From a virus, in the IMG/VR virus record IMGVR_UViG_3300021338_000003, positions 1 through 64,000 of that record: 64,000 nucleotides of DNA; one strand, written 5' to 3'. Under the pieces are notes generated by a model. The model had not been told where the DNA came from and ran no database searches. It saw nothing but the letters and a program-made list of their open reading frames with translations. Shown one piece after another: positions 810-9,254 of the stretch. Numbering within the stretch: position 1 is the first letter of the stretch; the number at the start of each line of letters is the position of its first letter. Both the position numbers and the translations under genes were made by a program.

Positions 810-2597
810 CTATACCTCAATATCAGTGATGGGGGTAACGTTCTCGGCCATACAACCAGTACAATTCACTCTGGATCCAAACCAGTTGCGGCTTTCGGAT
901 AGAGTTTCCTTTCCACACTCAGGACAAAGACCCGGAACGACTCGGCTTTGGAACCCAGAAACGACCCCATCCTCCGAGAAATCGAGGCCGATGTCCCCAT
1001 TCACTCGCTCATTCCTGAAATAGGGCTGGGTCTCGATGTCCTTGGGATAGACGAGGGTATAATATGTCTGGGTCCTATGGTCGAATGGTTCCTTAACCCT
1101 AGACCCTTCCTCGATGACCTTCACCAGGGACTTGAGGTTGGACATCAGGGGCTTGATGTCCGCCATTGTGTCAAAATGACCTCGAAACTTAGATGCCACT
1201 ACCATCTCAGCCCAGGAACTGGAGGACAGGATATTAAGAATAAGTTCACCACGCAGAGTGATTTGGCATGTACTGGGTCCAATCTTCTTCAGCAAACCCT
1301 GACTGAACAGACTTGCCATGACCCGACCAAAATTGGATTGGCGGTCCATGGAATACTCCCGGATAGCCGTCCGCAAAAGGTGACCCTCTGACACATTGGG
1401 ACTGGGCACATACCACTTCTGGACCACAGAAGAAGACTCTACAACAAATTCAGACGCCTTGAACCCTCTTTTGGGAAGGACGTTCTTGTCATCTAGGGTT
1501 GGTTTGGACACGAAGAGCATGCTCTTTGACCCCAATGGCCTCCTCTGACCAGGACCATCCCACAACTTCCACTGGATGGTGCTGCCCTTATTTGCAGACT
1601 CCAAAGCGAGGAGGGCCTGTGACCATACCCACTTGTAAATCACACCCTCGTCAGAGGAGGGATGATCAGCAGGAGTCACAGCAGGGTCTACAGGTTGAAT
1701 GAACAGTGGACCCGGACGCTGAGAGACCCCAGCCGTCTTATATCCCGCGGCCTTCAGAACTTTCTTTCCTCCCCGGATGAATTCTGGATCCATACCATCC
1801 TTAGCCCCCAGTACAGCAGTAATCATCCCACTGCTTTCCAATTTCTGTAGAGCTTTGATTATCCTTGAGCCCGGAAGGCCAACCTCAAGGCAAATATCAT
1901 AAACAAGACTGCCCAGGTTGAGCACAGATGGAGTACTACGACCCGTATCCCACTTGGACACAGTGTCTACAGTCAGAAACCCAGATTCGGCCATCCTCTG
2001 GTATCGTCTAGCAATGCCTTCAGACCCAACACATCCAGACTCCAAAACAACGTCCACTGGACCGCTCAATTTGGTCCGGCATATCCACTCGCATGAGACC
2101 ATCCGTCGACTCTGGAACATTGGCACCGCGGCGATGTGGAGAAGCAACAATTCCCCGACCCCAATGTTCACAGAAGTGCCCAAATATTCGGTAAGAGCCC
2201 GGGAGATATGAAGCCTGGAGAGACCTCGGGCTGCCGTCAGAGCAGTATACTGCTCGATGGCCCCCAGGTCAATGGACTGCTTCTTTCGAAGGGCAGAGTC
2301 CAGACCCTTCTTGTCGGTCACCCTGGAGAGGTCCACCCTGGTACATTTGGCGTCGGGGTGGAACGCCTGCACTTGTTTCTGGATGGCCAGAGATAGAGCC
2401 TCGCCTTCGTTGGTCTGGGGGAACCCCAAGTATACCACGTCTGTGTCCAGATTGGCCAACGTGGATACGGTTCCCGGGTGAAGGGATATCCCCTTTGGAC
2501 CCACCTTCATTCGGTGCTCGGGTAGACAAAGCACCGAATCGTGGATACGACCCAGGAATTCAGCCCGGCTAGGGGACTGCACGAAAATAACGGACAT
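810..2597 (-). CDS. Topoisomerase IA-like protein with all catalytic motifs replaced
   Basis: This 595-residue protein follows the type IA topoisomerase layout. The N-terminal TOPRIM block reads FVQSPSRA where active enzymes have VESPAKA. A second block reads LGFPQTNEGEAL where the family has ATDPDREGEAI. Next come an RVDLSRVTD...ID...AARGLSRL stretch like the family's EIT...ID..AQ.ARR block, and a segment ending SGMITAVLG where the catalytic tyrosine segment GLITYMRTDS is expected. The C-terminus has a CPEC...CTGC zinc ribbon (about residues 560-590). The acidic metal-binding residues of TOPRIM (E and both D of DxD) and the catalytic Tyr (now Ala) are gone; only the EGEA glutamate remains. 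I infer a DNA-binding, non-cleaving relative. The start follows a GGGAGAG Shine-Dalgarno site. It lies in a minus-strand replication block between the RecA-like and thioredoxin-like genes. The fold call is by eye. Confidence 0.6.
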   Translation of the reverse strand: MSVIFVQSPSRAEFLGRIHDSVLCLPEHRMKVGPKGISLHPGTVSTLANLDTDVVYLGFPQTNEGEALSLAIQKQVQAFHPDAKCTRVDLSRVTDKKGLDSALRKKQSIDLGAIEQYTALTAARGLSRLHISRALTEYLGTSVNIGVGELLLLHIAAVPMFQSRRMVSCEWICRTKLSGPVDVVLESGCVGSEGIARRYQRMAESGFLTVDTVSKWDTGRSTPSVLNLGSLVYDICLEVGLPGSRIIKALQKLESSGMITAVLGAKDGMDPEFIRGGKKVLKAAGYKTAGVSQRPGPLFIQPVDPAVTPADHPSSDEGVIYKWVWSQALLALESANKGSTIQWKLWDGPGQRRPLGSKSMLFVSKPTLDDKNVLPKRGFKASEFVVESSSVVQKWYVPSPNVSEGHLLRTAIREYSMDRQSNFGRVMASLFSQGLLKKIGPSTCQITLRGELILNILSSSSWAEMVVASKFRGHFDTMADIKPLMSNLKSLVKVIEEGSRVKEPFDHRTQTYYTLVYPKDIETQPYFRNERVNGDIGLDFSEDGVVSGFQSRVVPGLCPECGKETLSESRNWFGSRVNCTGCMAENVTPITDIEV

Positions 2598-2606
2598 TTG
2601 CTCTCC

Positions 2607-2930
2607 CTAGAACAGGCCGAGAGGGCGTAGCCTGTCCCCTAGTGAGTTCAGGTCATCCTGATTTAGCAGGACGTCATGGATGATCTTACCATCCTTGAAG
2701 AAGCGAATCCGTGGGGCCCGAGCGATATCCACCAGGTGGCTTTGAGTCTCATCGATAGGCATCACAAACACTGGTTGTGATCCCTTAATACCATGAAGGT
2801 GCTCGACGAACTTCAGATGCTTTTTGGTTGGCGCTACCATCAGAAGGGCAAACTCCTGATTATCCCTGATAAGAGAGGTATATTGGTGCGCATGGACGTA
2901 GGTGAAACCTTCAGACCCCACGAATTGCAT
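2607..2930 (-). CDS. Thioredoxin-fold protein lacking the CxxC motif
   Basis: A 107-residue protein with the thioredoxin pattern: a strand (FALLMVAP), the helix that normally starts with WCGPC but here reads APTKKHLKFV, then FVMPIDET, and finally the cis-Pro and strand region ARAPRIRFFKDGKII, very like the thioredoxin P-x-h-x-h-F-K-x-G-K block. It has no cysteine at all, so it cannot be a disulfide reductase. Some phages recruit thioredoxin as a structural processivity factor for DNA polymerase (T7), and the position between a topoisomerase-like and a single-strand binding gene suggests a scaffold role; that is inference. The start follows GAGGTAAG. Confidence 0.45.
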   Translation of the reverse strand: MQFVGSEGFTYVHAHQYTSLIRDNQEFALLMVAPTKKHLKFVEHLHGIKGSQPVFVMPIDETQSHLVDIARAPRIRFFKDGKIIHDVLLNQDDLNSLGDRLRPLGLF

Positions 2931-2938
2931 ATCTTACC

Positions 2939-4231
2939 TCACTCCATCGGCCGACGCTTGCGCCGACGCTTGCGAGGTGCCTCTTCGGAATCAGACTTGG
3001 TCGGAGGGCGCTTGCGCCGACGCTTACGCGGAGGCGGGGCCTCGTCCTCGCCATCAGCAGGAGGACGAGACTTGCGGGTACGAGTCCGAGTCTTGCCTCT
3101 GGCGGACTTGCTACCGGTCTTCTTCGAACGACGGCGACGGCGAGGAGCCTCTTCCTCCTCCTCGTCATCTTCGGAGCCCGTGTCCTTCCAAGCGTTATCG
3201 TTCTCATCCTTGCCTTCATACAACTCACGACGGGGGCGACCGTCGTCGTCATAATACCCAGACCGCTCCATGAACCGACGCATGTTGTCAGGGTCAACGT
3301 CAGCAGCCGCCATCTCTTCCAGAGGAAGAAGACCGGCCTCCTCGATCACCTTCATGCCTACCAGCGCCTTGGGGTTCTCACGACGGAGCTTGAAAATCCC
3401 CATGATATTGGTCTTCTTGCCGTTCTTGAGAATGTAGCGGCCGAAAACCTCTTTTATCTCATCTGAAGTGAGAGGGTGATTTGGAGCGTCATTGCACTTC
3501 TGTACGGAATACATGTCGTCGGCACGACGAGCCGTCTTGTCGAGGCTCATGGTGATGTCAAATCCCTGTTTGGGGTCAGCGGGATCGACACGTTCAAACT
3601 TGGCGATCTTATCGATAGCCTTCATAGGAGTGTAGGGCATTCCAGATTTACCCAGAACACCGAAGTCAGAATTACCCTTGACCACATCCCGGCCGCGGAT
3701 CGTCTTGACGTTGCGCTCGAAGCAGAACCACCAGGTACGCTGATTTGGGCGGGACTTGAAATCATCACACATGGGGCAGCAAAGGCGGTCCAGACGGACG
3801 GCCTTACCATTTTCCATAGCCCGAGGACAGAACCGGTCCTTGTTGCGGTCCGTTCCTCTGGGCACCTCGATCCCCTGTCGCTCCAGGGCGACAGCCTTTA
3901 CGACCTCGGAATCATACCAGCCCTGACCGGTCTTGGGGTTCTTCCAATCAACAACCTTCTCACGGAAGAGGTCGAACTTGGGGCAGAGGAAAGGAACACC
4001 AGGCGGAGCCTTCGGGGGCTTGAACTCCCTGCCCTCGGCGATGGCCTTTTCTCGCATTGACCCGAGCTTGTCAGCGTAGTCGCCGGCTCCCTGAACACAC
4101 CAATGGTTGGCGATGTCCTGGACGGGACCCACAAGCCGGAAACGACGATTCCGGTTATCAGGTACGATGAAGTTGACATCCTCGTCCCAGCGGCTGCGTC
4201 GCTCGCTGCCGCGGTCACTGTAATTGCGCAT
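2939..4231 (-). CDS. gp32-like single-stranded DNA-binding protein with basic tail
   Basis: A 430-residue protein resembling phage gp32-type single-strand binding proteins. It has an N-terminal region with a zinc-binding-like set of cysteines (FLCP, RFCP, CCPMC between about residues 80 and 165), then an OB-fold-like stretch (RTWWFCFERNVKTI; the FDITMSLDKTARRADDMYSV region) and a charged C-terminal tail from about residue 345. Such proteins usually end in an acidic tail that recruits partners. Here an acidic run (EDDEEEEE) is followed by about 80 residues rich in Arg/Lys with repeated RKRRRKR blocks. The preferred start is the ATG at 4231; a TTG two codons upstream is also open. The neighbours are replication and recombination genes. 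The function fits well, but the alignment is by eye. Confidence 0.65.
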   Translation of the reverse strand: MRNYSDRGSERRSRWDEDVNFIVPDNRNRRFRLVGPVQDIANHWCVQGAGDYADKLGSMREKAIAEGREFKPPKAPPGVPFLCPKFDLFREKVVDWKNPKTGQGWYDSEVVKAVALERQGIEVPRGTDRNKDRFCPRAMENGKAVRLDRLCCPMCDDFKSRPNQRTWWFCFERNVKTIRGRDVVKGNSDFGVLGKSGMPYTPMKAIDKIAKFERVDPADPKQGFDITMSLDKTARRADDMYSVQKCNDAPNHPLTSDEIKEVFGRYILKNGKKTNIMGIFKLRRENPKALVGMKVIEEAGLLPLEEMAAADVDPDNMRRFMERSGYYDDDGRPRRELYEGKDENDNAWKDTGSEDDEEEEEAPRRRRRSKKTGSKSARGKTRTRTRKSRPPADGEDEAPPPRKRRRKRPPTKSDSEEAPRKRRRKRRPME

Positions 4232-4322
4232 ATTCAAATTTTCCTAATGGTGGCGTCATGGTCGTCATGACGGTTGGTGGGATGGTAACCAAGTGGTGGC
4301 GCCATTTAGGCGATGTGGTGTT

Positions 4323-5017: not shown

Positions 5018-6310
5018 TTACGACCTCTTCATCTGATCGACCGCAATGAGGGCCATCTGTCGGAGTCTTTCACGGACTATGTCCAGTGGGTACATGTCCT
5101 TACTATCCGGGACAAGGTCAAAGGTACCAAAACAGCAACAGATGACCATTCTTTCTTTGTAGGATAGGGCCGACATGTAGTCACTAGCCTGAGTGGATGA
5201 CTTCCGGGACAACGAGTCCTCTACAGACTCACCTTCGTCTACTACGTTGTCTCGAAGCATGGTGCCAGGGTCGTCTTCGGACAGTGGACTTTCAAGACTG
5301 ACTGGACGATTGATCTGAATGGCCTGCATGACTTCGACCACTTGCTCCTCGGTCATCTTCATTTCTTTGGCGATGGCGGGGATGTCGCCTACAATCCCCT
5401 TGTCGTGGCTCATCTGCTCCATCTTGCGGTACACCTGCCAAAGAGGGGCAGGGATCTTGCACATGTTGGCTTCGGTCTTAAGATGAAGCAGGACCGAAGC
5501 CTGAATCCAGTTGCGAGCCAGTCCCGAAAATGCCTTTTCCCGATTGGGGTCGAAATAATTGGCTGCTCGAACCAAACCAGTGGACCCGTGCTGGAAGTTG
5601 TCGAGTATCTGCTGTTCTGACCTTCCATACTTCCGAGCCATCTGCATCACCAAGCGACGGAAGGAGACCAGAACCTTTGTCCTCATGGCCATAGCAATCT
5701 TCATGTGCCACTGTACCTGCTTGACCACCCCGTAGAAGTGAGTTTGTGTCGCCCCAAACCTTTCCTCCATTGACCTCGCTTTCATTTCCAGTCTTGCTAC
5801 TTCCAGTCTCAACTTCGGTCGAACCCTTTCCCCTATATCCTCAAGTCGTTCAACTTCCAGCCGTTTAGGGATGGCTTGGTCAACATACATGCAGTAGCGC
5901 TTGGTGCTTCGGAGGAATGACTCTCCTAGGATGATATACACTGCATAGACGAAAGGAAGAGATTCCTTGTGTTGAACATAGGGGGATATTGTATCCTTTT
6001 CCTTCATCGCTGAGTGATACATGAAGTCCAAACCCAGCTCAATCAGCAGAACTTCCCGCGGCAGATAATCATCAACTTCATACCCACCCCGCTCTCTGAT
6101 GATGTCCTCCCCGTAGAAGATCGTGACATTTTTGAGAACCTTCGCCGCCATCTTGGTGGTATTCTCAATCATGAAGGCATCGAAGAAGGAAGTATGAGCG
6201 CCTATCAGGTCAGCAACGTCTTCAATCACCTCATAGAACTCATGATACCACCACACCATCTCTCTATGGGGTATCAACGGTGCGTTGTATAGGGTTCCGA
6301 GATTGTACAC
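5018..6310 (-). CDS. Phage-encoded sigma-70-family transcription factor
   Basis: 430 residues. Region 2 is clear at about 215-290: MQMARKYGRSEQQILDNFQ, then HGSTGLVRAANYFDPNREKA and FSGLARNWIQASV, matching the family's 'D..QEG..GL..A...FD...G..FS..A..WI.Q'. Region 3 follows (IPAIAKEMKMTEEQVVEVMQ; PVSLESPLSEDD). A short region 4-like end (SYKERMVICCCFGTFD; VRERLRQMALIAV) replaces the normal helix-turn-helix. The first 200 residues are a long helical extension that I do not recognise. The start is GTG behind a G-rich Shine-Dalgarno site. It presumably redirects host RNA polymerase to a class of phage promoters. The divergent gene at 6359 starts 48 bases away. Confidence 0.85.
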   Translation of the reverse strand: MYNLGTLYNAPLIPHREMVWWYHEFYEVIEDVADLIGAHTSFFDAFMIENTTKMAAKVLKNVTIFYGEDIIRERGGYEVDDYLPREVLLIELGLDFMYHSAMKEKDTISPYVQHKESLPFVYAVYIILGESFLRSTKRYCMYVDQAIPKRLEVERLEDIGERVRPKLRLEVARLEMKARSMEERFGATQTHFYGVVKQVQWHMKIAMAMRTKVLVSFRRLVMQMARKYGRSEQQILDNFQHGSTGLVRAANYFDPNREKAFSGLARNWIQASVLLHLKTEANMCKIPAPLWQVYRKMEQMSHDKGIVGDIPAIAKEMKMTEEQVVEVMQAIQINRPVSLESPLSEDDPGTMLRDNVVDEGESVEDSLSRKSSTQASDYMSALSYKERMVICCCFGTFDLVPDSKDMYPLDIVRERLRQMALIAVDQMKRS

Positions 6311-7250: not shown

Positions 7251-7287
7251 GAATCACCTCTAATGGATGGAGTTTAGTGGAGACTGC

Positions 7288-8115
7288 ATGCCCGAATGGC
7301 CCGAAGTCAAAGTGGTAGTCCACCAGCTCCAAAGACTGGTAGGGTCTGTCACTTCAAGATCCTGGTCCAACTCCAAGTACAACCCAGGCAGAAAACTCGG
7401 CGGGATAGAAGGACTGAAGGTCAAGAGAATCCGGCAGCGGGCCAAGTTCATCGAATTTCACCTTCGGCAAGGTTCGACCCGCAAAGTAGTCATCTTCCAT
7501 CTTGGCATGTCAGGAAAGCTTGGTATCGTTCCTCTGAGTAGCCCAGCTCTACAGGGTGTTCACTGCCACGCGTGGATGGCTTTCGAACACAAAGAGGCCC
7601 TAGTGTTCGTGGATCCCCGAAAGTTCGGGCGGGCCATGGTCATTGAAGACCCCAGCGTATATCGCTTCGAGTTATACAAAAATATAGGCCCCGAAGCGGC
7701 GGCTATTGACTTCAACACCTTTCACAGTCGCGTGTCCCAGAAACCGAAATGGACGGTCAAGAAGGCTTTGCTTGACCAAAGCCTGGTTTCAGGATACGGC
7801 AATATATATGCGAATGAAATCTTGCATTATGCCCAGGTTCATCCCCACTCAAGGATAGAGCTTGTTCCCCGAGAGCGATGGTTGGCAATCCACGGAGCAA
7901 CCCCACGTCTGTTTGACCATGCCTTCCGATGCGGAGGTTCTAGTCCCCAAAGCTTCCGAGGGCCAAATGGCGAGTCGGGGACCTTCCAAAACCACCACAG
8001 GATATACGGAAGGGAGGGAAAACCTTGTAACAGGTGTGGCAGGCCCATAATGAAAGGGTACCTCGATGGGAGGAGCACCTTTTGGTGCCAATGTTCAACA
8101 ATCTTCGATTATTAG
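7288..8115 (+). CDS. mutM: Formamidopyrimidine-DNA glycosylase (Fpg/Nei family)
   Basis: A base-excision-repair glycosylase and AP lyase that removes oxidised bases; 275 residues, the usual Fpg length. The start is fixed by chemistry: the family needs Pro directly after the initiator Met, and this ATG gives M-PEWPEV (Pro2, Glu3) behind GTGGAG. Other family features are IRQRAKFIEFHL (conserved Lys loop), HLGMSG, VDPRKFGRA, QSLVSGYGNIYANEIL (helix-two-turn-helix) and a C-terminal zinc finger YGREGKPCNRCG...FWCQC. The last cysteine pair is C-x-C instead of the usual C-x2-C. An open ATG 7 codons upstream would remove the N-terminal proline and is rejected. Its presence suggests the phage protects or edits its own DNA. 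Confidence 0.93.
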   Translation: MPEWPEVKVVVHQLQRLVGSVTSRSWSNSKYNPGRKLGGIEGLKVKRIRQRAKFIEFHLRQGSTRKVVIFHLGMSGKLGIVPLSSPALQGVHCHAWMAFEHKEALVFVDPRKFGRAMVIEDPSVYRFELYKNIGPEAAAIDFNTFHSRVSQKPKWTVKKALLDQSLVSGYGNIYANEILHYAQVHPHSRIELVPRERWLAIHGATPRLFDHAFRCGGSSPQSFRGPNGESGTFQNHHRIYGREGKPCNRCGRPIMKGYLDGRSTFWCQCSTIFDY

Positions 8116-8387: not shown

Positions 8388-9254
8388 GTGGCCAAGGTTA
8401 CGCTCAAATCTGCTGCCTATCTCAGGGGTGAGAAGGTGGTGTCCATCTTGGCCGTGTCCGAAGGCCAAATCCAATCCTCGCTCTTCTTCCGGCTGGGTAT
8501 GAAGTGCATGGAGAGAAAGAACGAGGATGGGGATGTTAGGGAGATTTGGTACTATGACCACCCCACCAACATCATGGCCATCCGCAATCTCAAGATGTCT
8601 TGGAAGGCCCAGGGAGTTGACCTCACTCTAGACTTGACCGATGCACTTGGTAATTCCATGGTTGACCTTTTGCATCCACGGGCGGTGAGATTCTATTCCA
8701 AGGAATTTCATCAAAAGATGGGTACTGACCCCATCTGGCAGGCACCCACTGCCGTGGACAAAATGGCAATGGGCCTCATAGCCAAGAAGCATCCACATCT
8801 GGCATCGGCTGCCGTCCTCATCCTCATTGAGGATTATGACCCCGAAAAGAAGGCAGAGCAAATCGCTCGAACAGGAAAGAAGAGCGAGGTTTGGGGATTC
8901 TGCCAGAAGATGAGCAAGACCGAGAAATCTCACACTGGGTTTGATTTCAAGATCACTCTTTGTCACGAGATTTGGCAACGGTTCGATCATGCCCACAAGC
9001 GCTATATGCTGGACCATGAGTTGATGCACTGTGGCCGAACCGAAAAGGGCAGGTGGGTATTGCTGGACCATGACGTTCAGCTCTTCAGCCAAGAGGTAGA
9101 AGAGTACAGCAACGTCATCCCTGCCCTCAATAGAGAAGTTAGCGCTCTATTGTTCAAGAAGAAGAGTGCCGACGCCGAGGGTGATACCAAGAGCGCTGAT
9201 AAGAAGGTACGGAGGCGCAAGAAGAAGCGCAAGCCCAAACCTGAATCCGACTGA
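8388..9254 (+). CDS. Phage metallopeptidase-domain protein (HELMH)
   Basis: 288 residues with GTG start behind GGGAGGT. A zincin motif sits in YMLDHELMHCGRTEKGRWVL (HExxH at about 209-213) followed by LDHDVQLFSQEVEEY. This is the arrangement I associate with the putative phage metallopeptidase domain found in many phages, where a later His/Asp helps bind zinc. The C-terminus is a Lys/Arg tail (KKVRRRKKKRKPKP), suggesting nucleic-acid or surface binding. The substrate is unknown. A short gene and a second, membrane-anchored metalloprotease follow. Confidence 0.6.
   Translation: MAKVTLKSAAYLRGEKVVSILAVSEGQIQSSLFFRLGMKCMERKNEDGDVREIWYYDHPTNIMAIRNLKMSWKAQGVDLTLDLTDALGNSMVDLLHPRAVRFYSKEFHQKMGTDPIWQAPTAVDKMAMGLIAKKHPHLASAAVLILIEDYDPEKKAEQIARTGKKSEVWGFCQKMSKTEKSHTGFDFKITLCHEIWQRFDHAHKRYMLDHELMHCGRTEKGRWVLLDHDVQLFSQEVEEYSNVIPALNREVSALLFKKKSADAEGDTKSADKKVRRRKKKRKPKPESD

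Follow-up and report, generated by a model that had tools for sequence, protein, structure and literature searches.

A putative type IA pseudo-topoisomerase encoded beside the RecA-like gene of a large tailed phage

The DNA analysed here (the window) is a stretch of 64,000 nucleotides corresponding to positions 1 to 64,000 of the virus record IMGVR_UViG_3300021338_000003. Near its start, an open reading frame on the minus strand (positions 810–2597) encodes a protein of 595 aa, P0001, which profile alignment, fold match and a residue table identify as a putative catalytically inactive homolog of type IA topoisomerases. The codon use of this frame is coding-like (0.098; none of the five other frames exceeds −0.04), and upstream of it lies an AGGGAG-like stretch. 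The N-terminal segment of P0001 (residues 1–107; 2277–2597, minus strand) is a TOPRIM domain, assigned by matching a single-sequence model to the TOPRIM domain of TopA, while the C-terminal segment carries just one CX2C...CX2C zinc ribbon, of the C4 type (Cys558, Cys561, Cys579 and Cys582; 852–926, minus strand), which hhalign aligns to a TopA ribbon. A preliminary description of the window had pointed to the motif blocks VQSPSRA, FPQTNEGEA and GMITAVLG in this protein; they had been read correctly, and they align with VESPAKA, TDxDREGEA and GYITYMRT of TopA. A frameshift was considered as the source of the motif loss and rejected, as EGEA and GMIT are in frame on both sides.

As the preliminary description had it, a RecA/UvsX-like recombinase gene adjoins the gene for P0001 (1–804, minus strand; PF00154, 3e-18; phrog_97, 3.2e-30). 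The window holds its N-terminal 268 aa, and the gene, 462 aa in total, runs on over the point where the two contig ends join; its product matches the RecA of phage PaBG at 99.1% in a profile comparison. The two ends of the 250,817-base record share a repeat of 136 bases (135 identical). This repeat, together with the RecA-like protein reading through the junction, indicates a closed and probably complete genome. Just upstream of the P0001 gene lies a 107-aa gene (2607–2930, minus strand), whose counterpart at the same place in a related contig, G001, is 132 aa long (BLASTP, E 1e-5 for the single pair). It is followed by a 432-aa gene (2939–4237, minus strand), the G001 ortholog of which (L202:15169-16509) occupies the same place with 28.5% identity (E 1e-52). 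This gene had been labelled SSB, a label that profile comparison leaves unconfirmed: the 432-aa protein and its G001 ortholog match the 'putative SSB' of PaBG with a probability of 5.8 (score 27.9; the highest of 40 shuffles reaches 21.9). A sigma-factor-like gene (5018–6310, minus strand; PF04542, 5.8e-7; phrog_351), also with an ortholog in G001, bounds the conserved cluster on its far side. In both phages the genes run in the order sigma, small gene, 'SSB', small gene, pseudo-topoisomerase, RecA, while PaBG has the sigma factor, 'putative SSB' and RecA in the same order with no pseudo-topoisomerase between them. The genes of the cluster suggest a role in recombination and replication.

Other genes of the window and the record are noted as follows. 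The G001 sigma-factor-like gene has a second relative, encoded at L006:12336-13316 (30% identity over 120 aa). On the plus strand of the window lie a gene for an Fpg/MutM-like DNA glycosylase (7267–8115; PF01149, 2.2e-19; PF06831, 1.6e-15) and one for a PhageMetallopep family protein (8388–9254; PF18894, 2.5e-20), the latter conserved in G001 and in a third contig, G051.

The genome contains T4-like replication genes for a clamp loader, an SbcC-like protein and a DnaB-like helicase, which, with its terminase and capsid protein, are the marks of a large tailed phage. Judged by terminase and helicase, the named phages closest to it are jumbo phages of the PaBG, NCTB and Sauron kinds, with approximately 25–31% identity. 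G001, an IMG/VR contig of 176,803 bases, was found by scanning IMG/VR with a DnaB alignment; the helicases are 40%, the capsid proteins 55% and the GyrB-like proteins 51% identical. Of 278 ORFs with a length of 90 aa or more, 68 match G001 at E 1e-4 or better (the stretches overlap, so some ORFs are counted twice), and the proteins in common are mostly 21–56% identical. The gene for the terminase large subunit (L010:132-2507; record 197132-199507) holds an intein-like insert of approximately 200 aa, running from CVAPDTLVLT to near FISHN before CNPKIF, and the G001 terminase has no such insert at that place. Conversely, a portal-region protein of G001 (L204:11673-14225) carries a different intein-like insert (CVVGSTLILT...GLVIHN) that is absent from the counterpart in this phage.

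To relate P0001 to TopA we used a profile of bacterial TopA loci collected with a seven-sequence alignment (79 of 80 loci used, 76 left after the hhalign filter). The profile–profile alignment, which the preliminary description had proposed as a check, matches P0001 to TopA over 529 columns (hhalign probability 94.9%, E 4.6e-8, score 71.1), with residues 2–582 collinear with TopA from VESPAKA through the zinc ribbon. The best of 200 shuffled versions of P0001 scores 33.6 (probability at most 8.4%), and among the 127 ORFs of the genome that reach 200 aa, some from overlapping stretches, P0001 ranks first with the runner-up at 34.3. HMMER with the TopA profile gives E 1.3e-6 for P0001 as a single sequence and 0.0028 among 2083 ORFs. 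General searches miss this protein: Pfam, PHROGs and NCBIfam return nothing useful (best E 0.011, 0.091 and 0.16, respectively), P0001 stays below the curated cut-off of PF01131 Topoisom_bac (35.1 bits) and is unlisted in the Pfam search, phmmer against PDB chains gives unrelated rows, tblastn in 50,697 phage records gives no match at E up to 10, and an exact-pattern scan of IMG/VR gives none. The type IA topoisomerase fold and the active-site loss that had been proposed for P0001 are nevertheless supported, and a syntenic G001 ortholog whose site is disrupted in another way adds strong weight to both.

Structure prediction adds to this picture. Folded alone by AlphaFold, with no relatives supplied, P0001 is modelled with some confidence only over approximately residues 1–105 (block means of 62–85 over residues 1–100), and nearly all block means of the rest are below 50. 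Residues 1–107 of this single-sequence model superimpose on Mycobacterium tuberculosis TopoI with a Z of 12.4 and an rmsd of 2.4 (102 aligned, 24% identity); in the fold ranking of the TOPRIM domain M. tuberculosis TopoI comes first and E. coli TopoI next, with primases and RNase M5 lower, at approximately 10. When modelled with 32 TopA rows, the whole of P0001 adopts the TopA arrangement (pLDDT 64.7, pTM 0.57) and matches 1cy0 with a Z of 23.5 (477 aligned, rmsd 4.4), and every one of its top 46 fold matches is a type IA enzyme or reverse gyrase; the full-length match is not independent evidence, because the model was built on the TopA alignment. The TOPRIM and gate domains, whose absence would have spoken against the assignment, are both present in this TopA-guided model.

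We examined the active site in an alignment of P0001 and its G001 ortholog with E. coli TopA and 79 bacterial TopA proteins. The catalytic residues replaced in P0001 are each present in all 79 of the latter. Specifically, Q7 (2577–2579, minus strand) stands in the place of E. coli TopA E9, P60-Q61-T62-N63-E64 (2406–2420, minus strand) in the place of D111-L112-D113-R114-E115, A261 (1815–1817, minus strand) in the place of the nucleophile Y319, and L263 (1809–1811, minus strand) in the place of R321; in addition, K13 is replaced by R11, and H365, the histidine of HEAIRP, by P297. E115 (as E64), G116, E117 and R136 are kept, so that one of the four TOPRIM acidic residues E9, D111, D113 and E115 survives, and P0001 keeps 33 of 110 nearly invariant TopA columns. 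The preliminary description had the nucleophilic tyrosine and the metal ligands lost; the first part holds, with A261 in its place, and the second goes too far, as E115 is retained. The scaffold and zinc ribbon are retained as it had stated, with the zinc part reduced to one C4 ribbon.

According to a passage in the review PMC9960139, DNA cleavage by type IA and IIA enzymes uses a tyrosine located in the CAP/WHD domain, and metal ions are held by the acidic E-DxD residues of TOPRIM. With these E-DxD residues and the tyrosine replaced, P0001 would, judged by its sequence, be unable to use that chemistry. P0001 is therefore, as predicted from its residues, a pseudoenzyme of the type IA family, and we consider it very probable that it is a full-length TopA-type pseudo-topoisomerase, with TOPRIM, gate domains and zinc ribbon, that cannot make a covalent DNA break. 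Many of the TopA columns lost in P0001 or its ortholog touch DNA in TopA, and with so many invariant columns lost, binding of single-stranded DNA (ssDNA) by these proteins may be altered.

The G001 ortholog is a 578-aa ORF (L202:13064-14800) located between the 132-aa gene and RecA, a place that matches that of P0001. It is closer to TopA than P0001 is: hhalign against the TopA profile gives 98.8% (E 5.9e-17), the HMMER TopA profile ranks it best of 2083 ORFs (2.1e-12), and PF01131 matches it with E 1.9e-5 and 24.3 bits, below the 35.1-bit cut-off. BLASTP also links P0001 to the ortholog directly, through short stretches (E 5e-5 and 5e-4, single-pair values) that include the zinc-ribbon region. 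In the ortholog, D18, E85, T87 and R89 are found at E9, D111, D113 and E115, F279 at Y319 and E281 at R321, and there is a gap at H365; 29 of the 110 nearly invariant columns are kept, 14 of them in both proteins. The two proteins have fold, position and active-site loss in common, while the details of the site mostly differ, a pattern that fits an ancestor already inactive and a protein kept for another purpose. A disabled copy at the same place in a distant relative suggests a new job without DNA cutting.

We scanned 11 genomes, namely this phage, G001–G006, PaBG, NCTB, BcepSauron and GR11A, of which GR11A was covered to 75,500 of 194,800, G006 to 131,000 of 133,922 and Sauron to 260,500 of 262,653. 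Among 404 ORFs of 420–900 aa from these genomes, hhalign finds only P0001 and the G001 ortholog, and the third-best ORF has a score of 38.4, aligning over 54 zinc-region columns. Presence in two of the 11 scanned genomes, with the ortholog also disabled, argues for a retained pseudoenzyme. Searched with A3, an alignment that includes P0001, 12 records of named phages and 50 from IMG/VR gave short zinc-ribbon-sized matches only, a weak negative because the same search missed the G001 ortholog. Scans with the 'SSB', the available part of RecA and the terminase as queries returned no relative, a capsid scan of IMG/VR returned G001 alone, and a portal-region scan returned G001 and G051, a 52-kb fragment. 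G051 contains capsid-region genes, with no 'SSB' match and no pseudo-topoisomerase homolog save a lone zinc-ribbon ORF; because the 'SSB' match is missing, the fragment is uninformative on the presence of a pseudo-topoisomerase. The lone ORF (L318:1495-1752; 85 aa) resembles a single topoisomerase-type zinc ribbon (HMMER 3e-8) and adjoins the metallopeptidase gene. Two genomes, both from a rare clade, are thus known to carry the pseudo-topoisomerase.

The other topoisomerase subunits found in the phage are of type II: a GyrB-like protein at L004:14245-16143 and a GyrA-like protein at L007:8-1918, with type II genes in G001 too. A second, active type IA copy, which the preliminary description had proposed looking for, was not found in the genome by PF01131 (which matched 14 of 14 control genomes), by the TopA profile over ORFs or by A3, which recovered P0001 itself only. 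PF01028 likewise finds no type IB enzyme in this genome, and the PaBG enzyme used as query matches PaBG itself and neither this phage nor G001. That enzyme (L106:39324-41012), like those of Lu11 and others, is annotated 'DNA topoisomerase I', and we take its residue pattern to be of type IB, not IA; it was dropped as a possible homolog of P0001, resembling neither P0001 nor the TopA profile.

The preliminary description had suggested that the protein became a recombination or DNA-bridging factor, and the gene order in two phages makes such a role plausible. The type IA core is built for holding ssDNA and a RecA gene adjoins, so a non-cutting version would most simply be an ssDNA-gripping accessory. 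In such a mechanism, P0001 would grip ssDNA in the groove that TopA uses for the G-strand, would serve the adjoining RecA/UvsX-like recombinase as accessory or mediator, and would help RecA onto ssDNA, or stabilise it there, during recombination-dependent replication. That P0001 is an accessory of the phage RecA falls a little short of an even call, and so does the joint claim of a pseudo-topoisomerase with a RecA-linked role. Loading of RecA onto protein-coated ssDNA is a more doubtful proposal. Equally tentative, and drawn by analogy, is the idea of a new class of mediator, in which a type IA topoisomerase lost its chemistry in the ancestor of the clade and now acts as a non-cutting clamp handing ssDNA to the phage RecA. 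The UvsY profile (PF11056) has no match in this genome or in G001, with T4 as control at 6.3e-54 and the negative weak for G001, whose contig is possibly incomplete. The likeness to RecR and the missing UvsY would support a RecA role as an analogy and a gap, not as proof; against it, adjacent genes need not interact, the neighbouring 'SSB' keeps an unconfirmed label, and PaBG, with the same kind of RecA, appears from its sequence to have no P0001-type protein.

The main rival is host takeover, in which P0001 would alter host supercoiling or transcription, either as a decoy or dominant-negative version of host TopA or by docking its zinc ribbon on host RNA polymerase. In favour of this, RNA polymerase is a binding partner of TopA, solved RNAP–TopoI complexes are among the fold matches of P0001, and a sigma-factor-like gene lies nearby. 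However, E. coli TopA contacts RNAP through its C-terminal zinc domains, whereas P0001 has one zinc ribbon only, and in two phages the gene sits in a replication/recombination cluster; we regard host takeover as unlikely. Partnership with the phage type II topoisomerase or helicases, with P0001 steering them to crossings or junctions as a dissolvase-like scaffold, is improbable: both phages do have type II genes, but the GyrB- and GyrA-like genes are approximately 100 kb away, outside the cluster, and the sequence gives no hint of contact. P0001 could still cleave DNA or RNA if its nucleophile had moved elsewhere and its metal site had been rebuilt, with the retained E64 and 13 tyrosines to draw on, and migrated residues are known from some pseudoenzymes, according to a passage in PMC10211241; yet the orthologs are broken differently, with arginine at E115 in G001, and no common catalytic set is visible, which makes such cleavage highly improbable. 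Least credible is a decaying gene without function: the strong divergence of P0001, even for its cluster, would favour it, but intact ORFs of 595 and 578 aa stand at the same position in two diverged phages, packed tightly between genes and with coding-like codon use.

The RecA accessory reading, and the pseudo-topoisomerase itself, can be set against known systems. Like bacterial TopA, P0001 has TOPRIM, gate domains and a C4 zinc ribbon, collinear over residues 2–582; unlike it, P0001 has replaced the tyrosine nucleophile, the catalytic arginine, the histidine of HEAIRP and most of the acidic ligands. The type IA enzymes of Microcystis phage MaAM05, Yersinia phage GN1, Dolichospermum phage Dfl-JY45 and Cobetia phage Carin-5 belong to the same fold family and are also phage-borne, but the 13-sequence alignment in which they are included shows no variation at E9, D111, D113, Y319 and H365, all five of which P0001 lacks. 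The type IB enzymes of PaBG-like phages, annotated 'DNA topoisomerase I' in these distantly related jumbo phages, are proteins unrelated to P0001. Type IA topoisomerases occur in all cells, as stated in a passage of PMC7140829, and are studied as enzymes; our search of the open-licence literature found no report of a natural, catalytically dead one. A naturally retained, full-length, non-cutting type IA protein would separate DNA gripping and gate opening from strand passage, and would be a tool for asking what the scaffold does alone. If P0001 does help RecA, recombination mediators would gain a further evolutionary source, in phages where no UvsY can be recognised; P0001 has no sequence relation to T4 UvsY and would fill the slot that UvsY has beside UvsX/RecA. 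An analogy in working, as opposed to descent, would be RecR, described in a passage of PMC12192639 as a protein with TOPRIM and C4 zinc that helps load RecA. RecR is approximately 22 kDa, with HhH, zinc finger and TOPRIM, while P0001 has 595 aa, with TOPRIM first, then gate domains, and the ribbon at the C-terminus; a mediator role would make P0001 a topoisomerase-scale parallel to the use that RecR makes of TOPRIM and a zinc finger.
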